Shown here piece by piece: positions 3,116 through 61,391 of a DNA stretch of 64,000 bases. Source of the stretch: a virus. The notes beneath the pieces were generated by a model, which ran no database searches, was not told the DNA's origin, and worked only from the letters and a program-made list of their open reading frames with translations. Each line of letters begins with the position of its first letter. The stretch's first letter is position 1. A program made the translations under genes and the position numbers. Location of the stretch: the IMG/VR virus record IMGVR_UViG_3300042934_000398, positions 35,444 to 99,443 of that record; one strand, 5' to 3'.

Positions 3116-3292
3116 ATGAGTAGTGATTTTAAAGATAGACTTTTAAAACGATCAGATAATAATTGTGAAAATGTTTTAGATAACCATGATGTAGATGACT
3201 ATTATGAGGACGAAAATAACTACAATGATGATGATTGGAACGAATACGTAAATGACTATTATGAGAATTATGTAGCAAAATATTCGGATTAA
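3116..3292 (+). CDS. Short acidic Asp/Asn/Tyr-rich protein
   Basis: 58 aa with a perfect AAGGAGG ribosome-binding site and an ATG 5 nt later. The C-terminal 35 residues are almost entirely D, E, N and Y. A strongly acidic small phage protein of this kind could be a DNA mimic or inhibitor, but nothing in the sequence proves it. Confidence 0.65.
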   Translation: MSSDFKDRLLKRSDNNCENVLDNHDVDDYYEDENNYNDDDWNEYVNDYYENYVAKYSD

Positions 3293-3337
3293 TTACGATG
3301 AAACTATACTTTGATAGGAAAATGAAAGGAGAAATAA

Positions 3338-3733
3338 ATGAAATTTGAAAGTAAATTTGAGTTAGGACAGCAAGTATGGGGTACAGTTATTAATGATAAA
3401 AGTACATATGAACCAGTGGAATGTGATTTATGTGATAGCACAGGGTTTGTCATCGTAAAAGGGAAAGATGTAGAATACATTTGCCCTCAATGTTTTGGAG
3501 ACAAACAATATAAGAAATTAGGTAAAGAAATGACAATCTGCAAAACTGGTAAAATAGGCAAAATATGTGTAGAACAGTATGATAGTCAATATAAAAATAC
3601 AAGTGGAACAAAATATATGATCGACAAAACAGGAGTAGGAAGTGGAACTGTGTGGCGTGAAGAAGAATTATTTGCATCCGAAGAAGAAGCTCAAAGGGCT
3701 TGCGATGAATTTAATAAAAACAATTTACTATAA
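3338..3733 (+). CDS. Zinc-knuckle protein, DnaJ zinc-finger-like
   Basis: 131 aa. After a short N-terminal 'F..GQ.VWGT' segment there is a CDLCDSTGF...CPQCFGD pair, the CxxCxxxG repeat layout of DnaJ-type zinc fingers (one full zinc site). The C-terminal half looks beta-rich. Such single-knuckle proteins are frequent among uncharacterised phage early genes. AAAGGAG precedes the ATG. The role is unknown. Confidence 0.7.
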   Translation: MKFESKFELGQQVWGTVINDKSTYEPVECDLCDSTGFVIVKGKDVEYICPQCFGDKQYKKLGKEMTICKTGKIGKICVEQYDSQYKNTSGTKYMIDKTGVGSGTVWREEELFASEEEAQRACDEFNKNNLL

Positions 3734-3771
3734 AGGACGAATTTTATCGTGAAATAGAAGGGATGTGACAG

Positions 3772-4962
3772 ATAATATATAAAACAAAAATAATACCAGT
3801 TAAGTGTAGCAAAACTGATTATCATTATTTATTGAGACTGAACAAATTGTCAGCCGAAGTTTGGAATTATTGCGTGAAGATTGATAAAGAATATTATACA
3901 AATAATAAAAAATATATGGATATGAGAACTATACAAACAGCAGTTAAGTGTTATAACAATCTTCACGCAAAAGGAATTTACTATGTTTATAGAAAGTATA
4001 TGTTTGCAAGAGATTCAATGTTTAGGTCAATTAAAGCAAAGCATGATACAAGCAATAAAGTAAAATTACCTTATAAGAAAAAGAAGTATTTTAATACAGG
4101 TTGGGATTATCAAAGTATTAAATATGATTTTGAGAAAGGATTGATAAAATTATCAAGACCAATATCGCATGATGAAAATGGTAAGAAAATAAACAATCCA
4201 CCTGTCAAATGTTATACAAAAAACATTCCACAAGATATTAAAGAGATTGAATTGGTATATCGTAATGGATTATATTTAGTAATTAAATATAAGGAAGAAG
4301 ATATACAACAATTAATTCAATCCAATAATTCAGCGGCTATTGATCTTGGAGAAATACATAGCATTACATCTATAGATAATAATGGACATGCAATAATTAT
4401 TACTGGAAGAAAATTAAGAAGTATCAAGAGGTTAAGAGATAAAGAACAAGGTAAATTAAGAAGTAAAATGTCGAAATGTAAAAAGCATAGTAAACAATAT
4501 AAGACATATAGAAATGCATTATGGAATTTAAAGTATAAGACAGAAAGGCAGATATTTGACTGTGTTCATAAGATATCAAAATTATATCTCGATTACTGCT
4601 TAGAGAATAATATTTCTAAAGTTTACTATGGTGATTTAGACAACTGCACTCGAAATTCATCTGAAAAGATTGGTAAAATGGTTGGTCAGAAATTAAACGA
4701 ATGGAACTATGGAGAACTCACTTTACAGCTACGAAACAAATTGGAACGATATGGAATAGAAATGATAAAAGTAAGTGAAGCATATAGTTCTCAGACCTGT
4801 CCTCATTGTGGAAAGCGTCACAAGCCAAATTCTCGTAACTATGATTATAGGTGTGGTTATCATCAGCACAGAGATTTGGTAGGAGCAATAAACATTCTTA
4901 ATTTCAATGAAGACATTAAACAAGAATATCATACAAGTTTTAAGTATCTACGGATAGAGTAA
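3772..4962 (+). CDS. tnpB: TnpB RNA-guided nuclease (IS605/IS607-type), ATA start
   Basis: A TnpB/Fanzor-family nuclease. RuvC-like motifs are visible as AIDLGEIHSITSID, then YYGDLD, then the Zn region TCPHCG followed by HRDLVGAINIL. The middle acidic residue is Asp in GDLD where most TnpBs have Glu, and the second zinc pair is incomplete (YRCGY rather than CxCGY), so activity is uncertain. The conserved N-terminus (YKTKIIPVKC) lies upstream of the first usual start codon (TTG 3832). An in-frame TGA at 3766 leaves ATA 3772 (or 3775), placed after GAAGGGATGTGA, as the only plausible start. No TnpA is present. It is a solitary selfish gene with its guide RNA at the 3' end. Confidence 0.85.
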   Translation: MIYKTKIIPVKCSKTDYHYLLRLNKLSAEVWNYCVKIDKEYYTNNKKYMDMRTIQTAVKCYNNLHAKGIYYVYRKYMFARDSMFRSIKAKHDTSNKVKLPYKKKKYFNTGWDYQSIKYDFEKGLIKLSRPISHDENGKKINNPPVKCYTKNIPQDIKEIELVYRNGLYLVIKYKEEDIQQLIQSNNSAAIDLGEIHSITSIDNNGHAIIITGRKLRSIKRLRDKEQGKLRSKMSKCKKHSKQYKTYRNALWNLKYKTERQIFDCVHKISKLYLDYCLENNISKVYYGDLDNCTRNSSEKIGKMVGQKLNEWNYGELTLQLRNKLERYGIEMIKVSEAYSSQTCPHCGKRHKPNSRNYDYRCGYHQHRDLVGAINILNFNEDIKQEYHTSFKYLRIE

Positions 4963-5075
4963 TCTAAAGTAGTAGATGGCTAGGTTGGAGTCCTAAGTAG
5001 TCCGTTGTAATTTGACGAGAAATTTTCAGTAATGAAAAAGCCAACCAAATATAATTTTGATTTGATTAGAAGAAA
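4963..5075 (+). ncRNA. Putative omega RNA / right end of the TnpB element
   Basis: This non-coding stretch directly follows tnpB, the usual place for the reRNA/omega RNA scaffold. It contains a long-range pairing GGTTGG / CCAACC enclosing internal short hairpins (e.g. TTTTCA / TGAAAA). Sequence from about 5050 onward would be flanking DNA that can act as the guide. The exact element end cannot be fixed without related insertions. Confidence 0.5.
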
Positions 5076-5090
5076 TGAGGTGATTTTACG

Positions 5091-5501
5091 ATATTTTATT
5101 GTCCAAAATGCAAGAAGTTAGATATTAATTTTAAAATGAATTCAGACATTCCACATGTAGTAAACATCAGAGATGGTTACGGACACCCTCTTTATCATAT
5201 GAAGTGTGAATGTGGAAATTATCTATCAGCAGGAATCCATTTTACAAAGGAAGAAGTAGAAAAGGATTCTGGTTTACTTGATTATATTAAAGAGGTTATC
5301 ACTGGTTATAACAAAGATGGATGTTTTTATATGGATGGCTATTATAAATATGTGGAAGATAGAATAAACAAGATAGAACAACGAAATAAAGAAGTATTAG
5401 AAGAACGAGCAAGAATTTCTGTTATGAGTGAATTAGAAAAGAAAGAATATTTTGAAAAGAAATATGAAGAAATGATGAAACGGCTAGGAGAGGAGAAATA
5501 A
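5091..5501 (+). CDS. Zinc-ribbon phage protein, ATA (or ACG) start
   Basis: 137 aa. The N-terminal YCPKC and CECG pairs form a zinc ribbon; the C-terminal third is a charged coiled coil (about residues 95-137). The first ATG at 5136 would delete the first zinc pair. Upstream in frame there is only GGT-GAT-TTT-ACG-ATA after a TGA, with a GAGGTGAT ribosome-binding site, so initiation must be at ATA 5091 or ACG 5088. It lies directly behind the TnpB element. The function is unknown. Confidence 0.7.
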   Translation: MFYCPKCKKLDINFKMNSDIPHVVNIRDGYGHPLYHMKCECGNYLSAGIHFTKEEVEKDSGLLDYIKEVITGYNKDGCFYMDGYYKYVEDRINKIEQRNKEVLEERARISVMSELEKKEYFEKKYEEMMKRLGEEK

Positions 5502-5502
5502 T

Positions 5503-5799
5503 ATGGAAAGATTAACTAAGATTACGACAAGTGGATTTGATAATAAGAAAGTTGACACAGAAGATTATAGCGTATATGAATTATTACAAATGGTATTAGG
5601 CAAGTTGGCAGCATATGAAGATACAAATTTAATGCCTGATGAAGTGGAAGAACTACAAGGACGAATTGAACATTTGCAAAAATTCTATGATTACTTTTGC
5701 GAATTATATGGTACAGGTTTAGATGTCGCTAACTGGCATTTAAATGGAGATCTAGAACCGTTTGATAACTTTTTCGATAGTGCGGAAGAGTCAGAATAA
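5503..5799 (+). CDS. 'MERLTK' family phage protein
   Basis: 98 aa, starting MERLTK and containing LGKLAAYEDTNL followed by a Glu-rich helix. This is a widespread small phage protein family of unknown function. A paralogue starts at 35166. The ATG follows the upstream stop within 2 nt and the ribosome-binding site GGAGAGGAG lies in the previous gene, suggesting translational coupling. Confidence 0.75.
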   Translation: MERLTKITTSGFDNKKVDTEDYSVYELLQMVLGKLAAYEDTNLMPDEVEELQGRIEHLQKFYDYFCELYGTGLDVANWHLNGDLEPFDNFFDSAEESE

Positions 5800-48413: not shown

Positions 48414-50108
48414 ATGAACGCAGTATACTATTGCAGAGTTAGTACAGAAGAAGATAGTCAAGTAAAAGCAATGGAAAGTCAAATTCAAGAAGCAAAAAAA
48501 TGTATTGAAAATAATGATTGGATTGAAATAGATGGTTATGTTGATGAAGGTAAAAGTGGTACTGCAACAACTAAAAGAGATGAATATAATCGACTATTAA
48601 ATGATTTAGAATCAGATAAATTTGAAATTATTGTTATTAAATCGCAAGACAGATTAATGCGTAATACAAAAGATTGGTATATTTTTATCGATAAACTTGT
48701 TACTAATAATAAAAAATTATTTTTTTATTTGGAAAATAAATTTTATACACCAGATGATGCACTAATTACAGGAATAAAAGCCATTCTTGCTGAAGAATAT
48801 AGTCGTGATTTAAGTAAAAAACTCAATAATGCTCATAGAAATAGGCAAGAAAAAGGGAATAGTGTTGTAATTACGTCTTCTACATGGGGATATGATAAGA
48901 TAAATAAAGAAGTAGTTGTTAATGAAAAAGAAGCTGAAATTGTGAAGTTAATATATGATTTATATATACAAGGTTATGGTAGTAGAACAATTAGTAAGGA
49001 ATTAAGTAACAGAGGAATAAAAAGCAGAACTGGCAAAGATTTTGCTGAAATTACAATAAGAAGGATTATTAGAAATCCTCTATTTAAAGGAACAGCGGTA
49101 ATGAATAAACGCCATATGGATTTTAACACAAAGAAAACTTATCACAATCCTGAAAGTGAATGGATATATCACGAAAACGCTGTACCACCTATTATTTCAT
49201 CAGAAATTTGGGAACAAGCTAATAAAATAATGGATACAAAATCTAAAGAAGTACATGGAGAAGAATTTGGTAAAAGAAGACAGGGTAAAAATTTAGGAAA
49301 ATTTAATTTATCAAGTAAAATAATCTGTGGAGAATGTGAATCAGTTTATTGGAGAAGATATCGCAAAAATACTAAAGGTGAACAGATAGTTGATTGGAGT
49401 TGCAGTGAATATGTTAAAAGAGGTCGTAAAAATAAAATTGATTCAAGAGGAAAGAATAAAATTAAATTAAATGCTAAAGAAGGTGGATGTGACAATATCC
49501 ATATAAATGATAATGATATATATAATATTATTGTTAAAATATCAAATAAAGTATTTAATAAGGATAAAAACAATATTATCGATAAATACACTGCCGTTTT
49601 AAATATTGCTTTCTCAAATGAAACATTACAAGATGAAAAACAACAGTTGGAATCAGAGAAAGTAAAAATATTAAACCAAAAAAATATATTATTAGATAAA
49701 CTACTTGATGATATAATAACAAATGATGATTATAAACGAAAAGATTATGAGTTAGAAAATAGATTAAATCAGATTATAGCCAAAGAAGAGACTCTAACAG
49801 AACGAGAAAAAGAAGCATCTAGTCAAGAAAAAAGAATTAATGAACTAAAAGAACTATTAGAGATAGAAGGTAACGATGAGATAAAGGTTGACAAAATTAT
49901 AAGCCATATAGAGAAGATAGTTATATTCCCAGATTACATGAAAGTTTACTTAGATTTTTATGATGAAATAAATATTAATATTCAAAAAGGAGAAAAAGGC
50001 AAAAAAGAATATCTGTATGTAGACACAGGTAAATACCTGATACCACATACAGACAAATATCACTACGATGGACAAGCCAAAGAAGTAAGAGTTAAGTTAT
50101 ATATATAA
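48414..50108 (+). CDS. int: Large serine recombinase (phage integrase)
   Basis: 564 aa. N-terminal resolvase domain with the catalytic Ser in YYCRVST (Ser10) and conserved RLMRN; recombinase domain (about 150-260, TWGYDKINKEVVVNEKEAEIVKLIY). Zinc ribbon ICGEC...WSC...GCDN follows, then a long coiled coil (about 395-480). This is the standard layout of phage serine integrases that join attP and attB. attP is expected beside the gene but cannot be identified from one sequence. The site GGAGGTG precedes the ATG. Confidence 0.95.
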   Translation: MNAVYYCRVSTEEDSQVKAMESQIQEAKKCIENNDWIEIDGYVDEGKSGTATTKRDEYNRLLNDLESDKFEIIVIKSQDRLMRNTKDWYIFIDKLVTNNKKLFFYLENKFYTPDDALITGIKAILAEEYSRDLSKKLNNAHRNRQEKGNSVVITSSTWGYDKINKEVVVNEKEAEIVKLIYDLYIQGYGSRTISKELSNRGIKSRTGKDFAEITIRRIIRNPLFKGTAVMNKRHMDFNTKKTYHNPESEWIYHENAVPPIISSEIWEQANKIMDTKSKEVHGEEFGKRRQGKNLGKFNLSSKIICGECESVYWRRYRKNTKGEQIVDWSCSEYVKRGRKNKIDSRGKNKIKLNAKEGGCDNIHINDNDIYNIIVKISNKVFNKDKNNIIDKYTAVLNIAFSNETLQDEKQQLESEKVKILNQKNILLDKLLDDIITNDDYKRKDYELENRLNQIIAKEETLTEREKEASSQEKRINELKELLEIEGNDEIKVDKIISHIEKIVIFPDYMKVYLDFYDEININIQKGEKGKKEYLYVDTGKYLIPHTDKYHYDGQAKEVRVKLYI

Positions 50109-50186: not shown

Positions 50187-50798
50187 TTATACCAACAGTC
50201 TACGTAAAGCTTCAGCTCCCAACTTTCCGTTTTTTAACCATCCATTTTTCTTTCTAAAATCATTAACCGCTGCTGTAGTTAAAGAACCCCATTTGCCATC
50301 CGTAACTAAATGTATATCTAGTTTTTCATTTAGTGCTTTTTGTATTATTTTAGTAATAAATATATTGTTGTTTTTTGCATCAAAAGTTGTACCGTTTATA
50401 CCCACATTTGCAATTTGGAAATGAGGTGAATCTACATTGGTAGACCAGTTTGCTCCAGCCTCAAATCCATATTTTGACATTATTTCAATTATCTTTTGAG
50501 TTTGTTTATCTTTTGTATTCCAAATAGCTGTCATCTCCCCATCAATTTTTCTTTGTGGAATTAAGTCAACTGCATTCTTTTTTGTATGTATACTATTAAG
50601 CGTCCATGTGATTTTACTACCTTCTCTAGTACGACCTTGTGCATATAGATAATTTTGTCTTTCTTGACTTCTGTAAGTTTCAACTATTAGTGGTGTAATA
50701 CCATTTTTCTCTATTTCATCAATTGCTAAATTTAATAACACTTGACACAGCGGATTAAGTTTTTTTATATCTCTGCATTGTTCTATATTTTTTGCCAT
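50187..50798 (-). CDS. Endolysin: M15 peptidase with peptidoglycan-binding domain
   Basis: 203 aa. D-Ala/L-Ala-D-Glu type zinc peptidase: the SIHTKKNAVDL motif (His71, Asp78; the usual Gly of HxxGxAxD is Asn) and DSPHFQ (His126) supply the zinc ligands. A C-terminal PG_binding_1 repeat (LVTDGKWGSLTTAAVNDF) anchors it to the wall. It is the last gene of the lysis operon; AAAGGAG site. Confidence 0.9.
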   Translation of the reverse strand: MAKNIEQCRDIKKLNPLCQVLLNLAIDEIEKNGITPLIVETYRSQERQNYLYAQGRTREGSKITWTLNSIHTKKNAVDLIPQRKIDGEMTAIWNTKDKQTQKIIEIMSKYGFEAGANWSTNVDSPHFQIANVGINGTTFDAKNNNIFITKIIQKALNEKLDIHLVTDGKWGSLTTAAVNDFRKKNGWLKNGKLGAEALRRLLV

Positions 50799-58842: not shown

Positions 58843-58908
58843 ATAAGAGTAACATCCTTATGTATGACAGTCACTTATCTTTTCGAGGGAGTAGTGACTG
58901 TCTTTTTT
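58843..58908 (+). ncRNA. Putative antisense RNA opposite antirepressor leader
   Basis: About 66 nt, ending in a strong terminator: GACAGTCACT (58866-58875) / AGTGACTGTC (58893-58902) then TTTTTT. It is complementary to the - strand mRNA between the small HTH-like gene and the antirepressor. Position recalls sar RNA of P22 and c4 of P1, which silence antirepressor synthesis; equivalence is inferred. Confidence 0.55.
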
Positions 58909-59104
58909 ATTTACCACGTTTTAAGTTAGATTTAATCACGTTTATTGCATTATCATTAAATAAATAACTTCCTTTCGCTGTTTCTCTAAAATCTGATTCA
59001 TTTAAATTTAATGATTTTGCCAGTCTGATTAAATATGCTGTCGTAATATCCAGCATTCTTGAAACTTCTGTAGTAATGTATACTTTCCTTACATCGTCAT
59101 TCAT
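58907..59104 (-). CDS. Small HTH-like regulator
   Basis: 65 aa; VYITTEVSRMLDITTAYLIRLAKSLNL has the spacing of a MerR/excisionase-like winged-helix DNA-binding helix, followed by FRETAKGSYLFNDNAINVI typical of such proteins. ATG 59104 suits AAGGAGG; ATG 59110 is too close. Probably co-transcribed with ant. Confidence 0.65.
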   Translation of the reverse strand: MNDDVRKVYITTEVSRMLDITTAYLIRLAKSLNLNESDFRETAKGSYLFNDNAINVIKSNLKRGK

Positions 59105-59130
59105 ATACATACCTCCTTGTTACAAGATTA

Positions 59131-59195: not shown

Positions 59196-59450
59196 CAAAA
59201 AGCACCTACTTTTTTAAGGTAGATGCTTAATTTTTTATTAATTTTATAAAACAAATAAGACTGAAACAGAATTGGCTACACCATATCTGAAACAATCTTA
59301 TCTATCGCTTTCGCTAAGAATCATGGCTACACCAGTCATCCTATATAAAGTATATTACTAAAATTCAAAATTATGCAAGTATCATGGTTACACCAGTTAA
59401 TTACTTACAAGACTATACAAAGAAATGGCTACACCTTAGTTTGTATGTCT
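59196..59450 (-). ncRNA. DUF3800-associated RNA with four hairpin repeats
   Basis: Transcribed from its own promoter downstream of the DUF3800 stop and ended by AAGCATCTAC / GTAGGTGCTT plus TTTTT (59229-59197). It contains four copies of TGGTGTARCCA-like sequence (59425-59436, 59384-59395, 59323-59334, 59272-59283). Each copy can be lifted to the apex of its own stem, e.g. TACAAA/TTTGTA for the first, TGTAAGTA/TACTTGCA for the second, ATAAGA/TCTTAT for the fourth; stems differ while the tips agree. This is good evidence for a structured RNA. I recall that structured RNAs near DUF3800 genes were reported by comparative genomics; identity with one of them is untested. Confidence 0.7.
59272..59436 (-). 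repeat. Four phased 12-bp repeats
   Basis: On the + strand: TTGGCTACACCA, ATGGCTACACCA, ATGGTTACACCA, ATGGCTACACCT, starting at 59272, 59323, 59384 and 59425. Spacings of 51, 61 and 41 bp are all a multiple of ten plus one. Confidence 0.85.
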
Positions 59451-59456
59451 AATTGA

Positions 59457-59485
59457 ATGTTATCACAATTAAATGTTTAAGTCAA
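59457..59485 (-). promoter_or_regulatory. Promoter of the repeat RNA
   Basis: On the - strand TTGACT (59485-59480), 17-bp spacer, TAACAT (59462-59457), immediately behind the DUF3800 stop codon. Confidence 0.65.
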
Positions 59486-59498
59486 TATAGTTTTTACC

Positions 59499-60230
59499 CT
59501 ATTCTAAAAGATTTTTAAATCCAAACCTACTCTCTGTACAATCATTATATCCTTTATATACTTTATCTTTAAATATTGCATATAATCCACAATAATCATT
59601 ACTATTAATCAAATGCCTTACAAAAGCCATTGGTATAAAATCTGCCAATTGAACTCCTAAGTTGTTATCTGATTTTAATGGGAAACTCAATATAGACAAT
59701 CTATCCATTATAGTCATAGAATCAATAAATAGCGTACCACCAGTGATTAAACGATAATAGCAAATTTGAAGATATTTATTTTCTTTGAGATTCCTTGATT
59801 CTATAAAGAATGATCCAGTTGCGTTTTTACTCAAAAGAAAATGAACAAAATTTTCTAAAATAATTTGAAGCGTAATATTATAAATATCATTTGTATGATT
59901 ATTAAAGTACATGTCACTATATTTTTTAGTATCTATAGATGATACGAATACTTCGATATCAAGTTCTTTTATCAATTTCTTAATTCCTTCAAATAATTTT
60001 ATACGGATAGTGTTATCTGTTAGAAACTCAAATCCTTTTCTATTTTTACGCATATCATATAAATGAAGAGGTAATTCTGGATTTGGCATATTCTCAATTT
60101 TAATCTTCTGTAATTTAGGTTTTAAGATATTTTCATAATCATCTATTTTAATTGCATATCCCCCTAGAGCAAAATATGTTCCAAACGCATTTGGTTTTAT
60201 TTCATCTAAAAATAAATAGTATTCGTCCAT
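59499..60230 (-). CDS. DUF3800 protein (RNase H-like fold)
   Basis: 243 aa. The DUF3800 hallmarks are visible: N-terminal YYLFLDE (Asp9, Glu10), central FFIESRN with Glu, and C-terminal GVQLADFI with Asp; these acids would form an RNase H-like active site. Start ATG 60230 follows GGAGAG; the upstream in-frame ATG lacks a site. No partner protein is adjacent. A multi-hairpin RNA with its own promoter follows, pointing to an RNA-protein system, perhaps defence or toxin-antitoxin. The activity of DUF3800 is not established to my knowledge. Confidence 0.85.
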   Translation of the reverse strand: MDEYYLFLDEIKPNAFGTYFALGGYAIKIDDYENILKPKLQKIKIENMPNPELPLHLYDMRKNRKGFEFLTDNTIRIKLFEGIKKLIKELDIEVFVSSIDTKKYSDMYFNNHTNDIYNITLQIILENFVHFLLSKNATGSFFIESRNLKENKYLQICYYRLITGGTLFIDSMTIMDRLSILSFPLKSDNNLGVQLADFIPMAFVRHLINSNDYCGLYAIFKDKVYKGYNDCTESRFGFKNLLE

Positions 60231-60264
60231 TTCAGCTCTCCTCATCAGTATTTAATAATAATGC

Positions 60265-60296
60265 CATTATATACCAAATATGGAGAAAATACTAGA
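60265..60296 (-). promoter_or_regulatory. Shared cassette promoter, DUF3800 copy
   Basis: Extended -10 TGGTATATAATG with upstream TCTAGTATTTT and TCCA blocks; nearly identical to 61379-61410 before the P63C gene. The -35 is poor, so an activator or extended -10 recognition is likely. Confidence 0.65.
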
Positions 60297-60302
60297 GTAA
60301 CT

Positions 60303-60334
60303 TATAAAAGCAACTACTTTTTACGGTAGATGCT
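60303..60334 (-). terminator. Shared cassette terminator, copy upstream of DUF3800
   Basis: On the - strand AAGCATCTAC...GTAGTTGCTTTT, closely similar to the terminator at 59197-59229 that ends the repeat RNA. Ends the P63C transcript. Confidence 0.7.
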
Positions 60335-60465
60335 TAATGATTTATATTAATATGCAAATATTGTTAAAAGCGGGTCCGCATCGATAAATCCTTATTTTAA
60401 GCCTATTGTAGCGATTTTTTATCGATAAAAATAGCCATTTTGACTACTTTTAGTCCGCCTCATTT
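60335..60465 (-). other. GC-richer 3' region of the P63C cassette
   Basis: No gene. Two GCGGAC boxes and two copies of TTTATCGAT (one in the palindrome TTTATCGATAAA) lie within 90 bp; GACTA-AAAG-TAGTC can form a hairpin. The position corresponds to the repeat RNA of the DUF3800 cassette, so it may also be a structured RNA. Confidence 0.4.
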
Positions 60466-61338
60466 TTAAATTTTTTCATCAATTGGTACAGCAAAAGAAC
60501 GTCTAAACATAGTTTCTAATTCATCCCATGAGTCGCATGCTCTAAACAAAGCCATATCAGAATAAATCAAATCTCTAAGCTGAATATAACCATATTCTTT
60601 AGAAAGTCTTTGATGTAGTTTATTCTTTCTATAGTTCTTTCCTTTAATAATAGGATTAAGACGTTTTAATTCATCTAATACGCCATCTGGTAATCTATGA
60701 TAAATTAAAAAATTTGTTAATTTACCAACATAAGAATTATGATAGTGACCATTATATTCCCATTGTTTTAATCTATATAATTCTTTGTAAAATTCATCTG
60801 GAAAAACCTTAGTCCAAGGTAATAATTCTGCACTAATATATGCAGCTAATATTTTTTGTAGTTCTTCCTCTTCCCGATCTTTTTCATATCCTGTGGCTTC
60901 ATCAATCAAAGCCGTAATACCAACTTTTGATAATGCTCTAACCAAAATACCACTCATTATAGCTAGTGGCTTTTGACTATCGGTTAATACTTTATCATCA
61001 TCTGCTTGTAAATAAACTTCACATATTAATGGGAGTATTTCTGCATTATACCCAACATATTTAACTTTACCATTTTTAGAAGTATATTTAACTTCTAAAT
61101 CAAATCCATCTGAAAATACATTATTAATATACGGTTCTAGATTTTTAGCATCCAAAAAACTTGGCATATTTTCTAATCTCTTATCTGACAAAGATTTTCC
61201 CTTTCTTGCCCTGCCAAAAGCTTCAAATACTGCTGTCGATGTTAATACTCTTGTCTTATCATCTAAAACTGCACAACCTAGCTCTTTCCCATTGATTTTA
61301 ACTTTACCTGAATATAATCGTTTTGGTAATTCACTCAT
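60466..61338 (-). CDS. P63C-domain protein
   Basis: 290 aa. Opening LPKRLYSGKVKINGKELGCAVLDDKTRVLTSTAVFEAFGRARKG and C-terminal LLPWTKVFPDEFYKELYRLKQWEYNGHYHNSYVGKLTNFLIY are the P63C family layout, found in phages and mobile elements with unknown role. Start ATG 61338 follows GAGGAGG. A perfect 12-bp inverted repeat covers its promoter. Confidence 0.85.
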   Translation of the reverse strand: MSELPKRLYSGKVKINGKELGCAVLDDKTRVLTSTAVFEAFGRARKGKSLSDKRLENMPSFLDAKNLEPYINNVFSDGFDLEVKYTSKNGKVKYVGYNAEILPLICEVYLQADDDKVLTDSQKPLAIMSGILVRALSKVGITALIDEATGYEKDREEEELQKILAAYISAELLPWTKVFPDEFYKELYRLKQWEYNGHYHNSYVGKLTNFLIYHRLPDGVLDELKRLNPIIKGKNYRKNKLHQRLSKEYGYIQLRDLIYSDMALFRACDSWDELETMFRRSFAVPIDEKI

Positions 61339-61354
61339 TATTTTATCCTCCTCA

Positions 61355-61391
61355 TTGGTATATAATCTTATCATATTACATTATATACCAA
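61355..61391. promoter_or_regulatory. Operator-like perfect inverted repeat
   Basis: TTGGTATATAAT (61355-61366) and ATTATATACCAA (61380-61391), 13 bp apart. The right arm is the -10 region of the P63C promoter read on the - strand; a bound dimer would block transcription. Confidence 0.7.

Follow-up and report, generated by a model that had tools for sequence, protein, structure and literature searches.

A DUF3800 gene of a probably temperate phage is followed by a predicted RNA with four repeated hairpin tips and its own promoter

Introduction

Rfam contains structured RNAs linked to DUF3800 genes for which no mechanism has been assigned, and DUF3800 domains also occur beside CRISPR effectors. 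A phage DUF3800 gene followed by a cluster of short repeats therefore raises the question of whether the repeats belong to an RNA gene, whether such an RNA is kept beside related proteins, and what it might do to its neighbour.

Setting of the cassette

The window, the whole stretch of 64,000 nucleotides that was analysed, is part of a virus record of 99,443 bases. The sole other copy found was an identical phage contig (L078/G001) binned with an Anaerocolumna MAG; it is the same phage and so offers no variation usable for comparison. A large serine recombinase gene (48414-50108), followed by an M15 endolysin gene (50187-50798), suggests that the phage is probably temperate. The DNA polymerase III alpha gene of the same phage (18886-23490) was found to contain an intein with a LAGLIDADG domain, and an RNA ligase family gene (PF09414 and a PHA02142 OB-fold) was found at 1413-2507.

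The cassette, made up of the DUF3800 gene and the predicted RNA gene, lies on the minus strand; its neighbours are a P63C-domain gene (60466-61374) and a 67-aa gene (58907-59110). Terminator-like hairpins at both of its ends open with the identical 13 nt TTAAGCATCTACC (59218-59230 and 60325-60337), which may be a trace of the route by which the cassette was inserted. The features are as follows, with the basis of each in brackets.

60303-60337, minus strand: terminator-like hairpin TTAAGCATCTACC..., upstream of the DUF3800 gene (sequence)
60266-60271, minus strand: possible extended -10 (TATAAT) of a DUF3800 gene promoter with a weak -35 (sequence)
60236-60243, minus strand: RBS-like GAGGAGAG, before ATG 60230 (sequence)
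59499-60230, minus strand: DUF3800 protein gene, 243 aa (PF12686, alignments, AlphaFold2, Foldseek)
59457-59485, minus strand: promoter of the RNA, TTGACT-17-TAACAT with extended -10 TG (consensus, position in relatives)
59196-59450, minus strand: predicted RNA, about 255 nt (promoter to terminator, fold)
59410-59450, minus strand: hairpin 1, tip GGUGUAGCC at 59427-59435 (folding, tip count, arm pairing)
59374-59409, minus strand: hairpin 2, tip GGUGUAACC at 59386-59394 (folding, tip count, arm pairing)
59317-59342, minus strand: hairpin 3, tip GGUGUAGCC at 59325-59333 (folding, tip count, arm pairing)
59306-59314, minus strand: GCGAAAGCG mini-hairpin (identical in L175, L185 and L186)
59252-59304, minus strand: hairpin 4, long stem, tip GGUGUAGCC at 59274-59282 (fold, terminal domain common to L175, L185 and L186)
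59196-59230, minus strand: intrinsic terminator of the RNA (fold, sequence)

The DUF3800 protein

The open reading frame spans 59499-60245 on the minus strand, and its likely start is the ATG at 60230 with GAGGAG just 5′ of it. The protein matched the PF12686 profile with E 8e-11 and 43.2 bits against a cut-off of 21, which places it in the family, and the residues D9, E10, E144 and D197 (numbered from M1) were found to be invariant in alignments of relatives, as the first-pass annotation had expected in naming a DUF3800 gene with intact Asp/Glu positions. A PDB sequence search with the protein gave borderline, unconvincing matches only, and a fold search was therefore used. The AlphaFold2 model was confident (pLDDT 89.3, pTM 0.88), and its best PDB matches in Foldseek were to RNase HII (1eke, E 4e-4, TM 0.50). 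RNase HII carries an adjacent D-E on its first strand, as does the DUF3800 protein with D9-E10. Model and alignment agree in predicting an RNase H-type fold with an acidic active site, and the RNase H-like protein proposed earlier is upheld at the level of the model. The model also agrees with the published description of DUF3800 as an RNase H fold with a catalytic rearrangement, linked to non-coding RNAs (PMC10910872). Searching the protein with models of defence proteins gave nothing beyond a weak, partial match to PDC-M16A (E 0.002).

The RNA gene behind it

The promoter, already read as a sigma-A promoter in the first pass, has its TTGACT at 59485-59480 and its TAACAT at 59462-59457 and starts 13 nt past the DUF3800 stop codon. 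By itself it is unremarkable, with 23 promoter-like sites in 2.4 kb against 18 expected; it gains weight because a promoter was found at the same place in 12 of 12 Gram-positive members of the protein clade described below. The predicted length of about 255 nt is right for the span from promoter to terminator, and the whole predicted RNA folds with z = -4.2 with the terminator and z = -2.4 without it. A terminator had been expected after the repeats and was found there (z = -3.9). Hairpin 4 is very stable (z = -5.4), whereas hairpins 1 to 3 are weak if folded singly. Most of the RNA consists of hairpins and short AU-rich linkers, and no reading frame spanning 59196-59450 was found.

The motif GGTGTARCC was found in four copies in the 64-kb window, all on the minus strand and all within the RNA, against 0.10 expected, a count that was reached by no shuffle of the window; the count inside the RNA was matched by 1 of 100 dinucleotide shuffles. 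Four repeats of the longer TGGTGTARCCA had been described. The four tips stand, but the 11-mer fits only three of them, the first tip reading AGGTGTAGCCA. The promoter, the predicted four-tip RNA and the terminator behind the DUF3800 gene are confirmed as a real feature of the sequence.

Pairing of the hairpin arms

The terminal domain was aligned with MAFFT, which is not structure-aware, and an arm-swap test was therefore used in place of a covariance model. The test covered 16 tip hairpins of six loci and compared the pairing of each arm with its own partner and with foreign arms; the mean was -9.2 kcal/mol for own arms and -3.3 kcal/mol for foreign arms, and 0 of 20000 permutations were as good, the choice of hairpins by eye from the fold somewhat favouring own-arm pairing. 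The pairing of own partners ranked 1 of 24 in the window, 1 of 24 in L171 and 1 of 6 in L137. Three of the window's arm pairs had been named from the sequence before any folding, as part of the claim that at least three pairs are complementary; all four were found to pair, including the weaker third.

Relatives of the protein and their promoters

Protein searches placed the window protein in a clade, its tree built on the members known at that stage, with three viral contigs (L175, L185 and L186) at 47-49% identity. It also contains L171 (39%), L176, L137, L080, L072 and L189, followed by L074 (a Clostridioides difficile plasmid), L073 (an Enterococcus phage) and L075 (a Vibrio plasmid). All 12 Gram-positive members, the window included, were found to have a promoter-like site at the DUF3800 stop codon with a score of 9 or more out of 12, and in 11 of them the score was 10 or more, with promoter starts from -4 to +38 nt relative to the stop codon. 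Among 32 control genes of the same loci, 6 reached a score of 9 (P = 9e-7) and 3 a score of 10 (P = 5e-7), in a consensus-based test in which some control genes share loci and three of the 12 members (L175, L185 and L186) are close to each other. A broad sample of 61 low-GC DUF3800 loci of all kinds contained the promoter in 12, compared with 2 of 146 controls, at a stricter threshold (P = 1e-5).

Past the promoter lies a stretch without an annotated or long reading frame, with a strongly negative folding z in most members and a weaker one in L189 and the window; the RNA ends in the relatives are predicted. The RNA was found downstream of the DUF3800 gene in all resolved members. The sequences thus support a structured RNA with its own promoter being kept beside DUF3800 in the relatives. 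The earlier expectation that DUF3800 homologues carry a nearby RNA held within the clade, as judged by the promoter at the stop in its 12 Gram-positive members, but many DUF3800 genes outside it have no such promoter, and the family as a whole therefore does not depend on the RNA. By the consensus used, no good sigma-70 promoter was found at the stop in L075 (Vibrio pJV) and alphaproteobacterial relatives.

Searching phage DNA with only the RNA as query gave nothing relevant. Three spaced copies of GGTGTARCC were found at 70 places in viral contigs, none with a DUF3800 relative, so the tip alone is no finder of such RNAs; apart from L056, these places are apparent in-frame coding repeats. The cluster of L056, an isolate virus contig, is non-coding-looking (minus-strand offsets 4149-5560), and no DUF3800 relative was found in the stretch examined.

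Other RNAs were met in the survey. In L106, roughly the first 270 nt past the DUF3800 stop contain two tandem copies of a compact RNA (AACAGTAAGTC...GTAAG...GCAATT), of which the second seems to have a separate promoter (TTGACT...TATACT); the same type is present in L094, L104, L105 and L107, and L094, L104, L106 and L107 gave no Rfam match. L091 and L144 share another RNA core, GTTCCGTCCTGGAGCCGCG, behind a promoter downstream of DUF3800, also without an Rfam match. Paracoccus phage Pkon1 (L183) has an 827-nt gap (3215-4041) without annotated genes behind DUF3800, by repressor genes.

Tips of the related RNAs

The GCGAAAGCG hairpin and a long terminal hairpin tipped GGUGUAACC, on stems that differ in sequence, are common to the window and to L175, L185 and L186. 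These three relatives have in addition a GUAGGUUACCUAC-type hairpin and, close to the 5′ end, another GUGUAAC tip. The GUGUAAC/GGUGUAACC tips are thus kept at 47-49% protein identity. The tip of L171 is AUGCGAWAGCUA in four copies, that of L137 GGUYAAACCUAACC and a variant in three copies, that of L072 UAGCUUGUCUA in two copies and that of L176 GAAUGAYUUCGG in two copies, and the outgroup relative L181 contains a tandem GGUUGGAYUACCGACC. The tip sequence seems to change along with the protein, a pattern in which only one tip group is sampled by more than one member. Tip repetition was significant only in the window, L171, L137 and L181 (which lies outside the clade), the remaining members having a compact fold or no more than two tips; several equal tips are therefore frequent, not required. 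The four equal tips ascribed to the RNA in the first pass accordingly describe the window and these three loci but not the other members.

Comparison with known RNAs and systems

In the Rfam scan no model reached its gathering score on the window RNA, and up to E 10 only chance-level matches were found. The first-pass annotation had pointed to the Rfam DUF3800 models; none matched the window RNA even at E 10, and none matched the RNAs of the scanned L171, L137, L072 and L094-like loci, whereas DUF3800-I or -XI was found beside other DUF3800 genes in the same survey. The models DUF3800-I to -XI (e.g. RF02969, RF02975) likewise describe a structured RNA beside a DUF3800 gene. The window differs in its protein clade, in its several equal tips and in an RNA that is downstream in all resolved clade members. 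In the wide sense it is a DUF3800-associated RNA, being kept beside DUF3800 genes.

Type III toxin-antitoxin systems (ToxIN, CptIN, TenpIN) likewise consist of a protein and an RNA with repeated units. There the RNA is upstream in one operon with a terminator between, forms tandem pseudoknot repeats and is paired with a ToxN-fold toxin (PMC5086642). In the window the RNA follows the protein gene and has a promoter to itself, so the order of upstream repeats, one promoter and an intervening terminator is absent. Its hairpins are irregularly spaced, only the tips being repeated while flanks and spacings differ, and plain hairpins account for the pairing, as judged from hairpin folding and repeat layout. 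The protein model is RNase HII-like in place of a ToxN/AbiQ-fold endoribonuclease, and the NCBIfam ToxN, CptN and TenpN models gave no match to the protein. Because it differs in the order of the genes, the arrangement of promoters, the form of the repeats and the fold of the protein, the window is not a member of type III. In L171, the closest genome relative, the DUF3800-RNA pair directly adjoins a TenpIN-like type III locus (2235-2978) with a promoter, three CCCCGYGAGTRACGGAG-like repeats, a terminator and the ORF of a divergent TenpIN-like toxin (NCBIfam E 1e-8, under the curated cut-off), by its sequence a complete type III layout. The type III-like system suggested at first is plausible in view of the repeats, of a tip that the closest relatives of the protein retain and of this neighbour of L171, but falls outside the type III definition.

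In AbiF/RCd22 of the Clostridioides difficile prophage phi027, an RNA that carries two copies of a motif neutralises a toxic protein encoded by the phage, and the AbiF RNA also lowers gene expression (PMC12373285). It resembles the window in the phage-encoded protein, the adjacent sigma-A-driven structured RNA, the repeated motif and the place near a lysis module (PMC12373285). AbiF, however, belongs to the Abi_2 (Cas13-related) proteins, and RCd22 lies upstream of its gene and is co-transcribed with it; the window gave no Abi_2 Pfam match and no RF03085 match, and no sequence relation to AbiF/RCd22 was found. DUF3800 proteins with an RNase H fold also accompany the Cas12a2 (V-A2) and VI-F CRISPR loci as accessory nucleases (PMC10910872, PMC12669027). 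The window protein has the same domain but is a stand-alone protein with its own RNA, and no CRISPR or Cas genes are present at the window.

Discussion

The DUF3800 protein and the RNA probably act as a pair, judging from their sequences, and there is about an even chance that in this phage-borne pair the RNA binds and restrains the protein. The two would form an accessory module of a probably temperate phage, in which an RNase HII-like DUF3800 protein is joined by a non-coding RNA dedicated to it and transcribed, directly behind the gene, from a separate promoter. This RNA would show several copies of one tip (GGU-GUA-RCC) to the partner protein, which would recognise them, and binding would hold the acidic active site in check. 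Were the RNA lost or diverted, for example by a second phage that shuts down host transcription or degrades the RNA, the freed protein may cut nucleic acid and stop the infection or the cell, an outcome like that of a type III RNA antitoxin. What is read from the DNA itself is an RNA gene with its hairpins, kept together with the protein, and a set of acidic residues that are intact; binding, inhibition, nuclease activity, toxicity, defence and a role in phage competition or element retention would be the functional side of this proposal.

Restraint by the RNA is the most economical reading because the RNA gene adjoins the protein, the tip is repeated and is common only to the nearest proteins, the active site is recognisable, the setting is a mobile element and a type III layout stands beside the L171 pair; AbiF/RCd22 offers by analogy an experimental precedent in phage (PMC12373285). 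A restrained nuclease or a type III-like system is thus plausible. Against it, the gene order is opposite to that of type III systems, the tip repeats are not significant in several members, and an RNA guide, scaffold or RNA substrate would look much alike. The RNA may indeed be a required cofactor, guide or scaffold of a ribonucleoprotein effector like OMEGA/TnpB or Cas nucleases, the identical tips being docking sites and the variable parts or linkers setting the target. The company of DUF3800 with Cas12a2 and VI-F, together with an RNA that has its own promoter and terminator and is kept with the protein, would suit this, but it is considered unlikely, since an RNA mostly of hairpins and short linkers offers no obvious unpaired guide stretch and multiple identical tips fit titration better than one guide. 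Control of DUF3800 expression in place of activity, for example by a 3′ UTR or antisense-like element, is suggested by the position directly behind the gene and by the effect of the AbiF RNA on gene expression; it is rather improbable, given an own promoter in all 12 Gram-positive members and repeated identical tips that a 3′ UTR does not need.

Repeated identical tips on a phage are also typical of sponges, and the RNA could be a decoy or competitor for a host or rival-phage factor (an RNA-binding protein or a defence system), with DUF3800 processing or protecting it. The tip, however, varies among relatives and is common only to the closest proteins, which indicates the partner protein as its reader. 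Mimicry of 16S rRNA by the tips, prompted by GGTGTAGC and GAAATGCG, was rejected, the shared-word lengths being no better than in shuffles with 2 exceptions among 18 (nominal P 0.003 and 0.04), so that tips as 16S rRNA copies are not beyond chance; a decoy is accordingly improbable. Slighter still is the chance that the four repeats act at the level of DNA, as operators or iterons bound by a regulator of the phage, for instance the 67-aa protein encoded just downstream. TGGTGTARCCA is nearly palindromic and the spacings of 41, 61 and 51 are near helical-turn multiples, but this spacing rule is broken in L171 (about 38, 71, 38), each repeat was found with its own complementary arms, a promoter precedes and a terminator follows the repeats, and the tips of the relatives sit inside stronger hairpins.

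The association of DUF3800 with RNA is itself already known; the window is set apart by an RNA outside the Rfam DUF3800 models, a gene order opposite to that of type III systems and an unrelated protein. The clade is a compact case, in which a single protein with a recognisable RNase H-type active site goes with a single RNA gene of about 250 nt whose repeated tip is well defined, and among close relatives the tip and the protein appear to have changed together. The promoter at the DUF3800 stop codon provides a finder for more such RNAs. Restraint by the RNA could further be placed, tentatively and at somewhat less than even chance, in a distinct class of RNA antitoxin, in which an RNase HII-like DUF3800 gene comes first and is followed by an independently transcribed multi-tip RNA with a lineage-specific tip, the whole spread by phages and plasmids. 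If true, such a class would explain the DUF3800-linked RNAs that have so far been without an assigned function.
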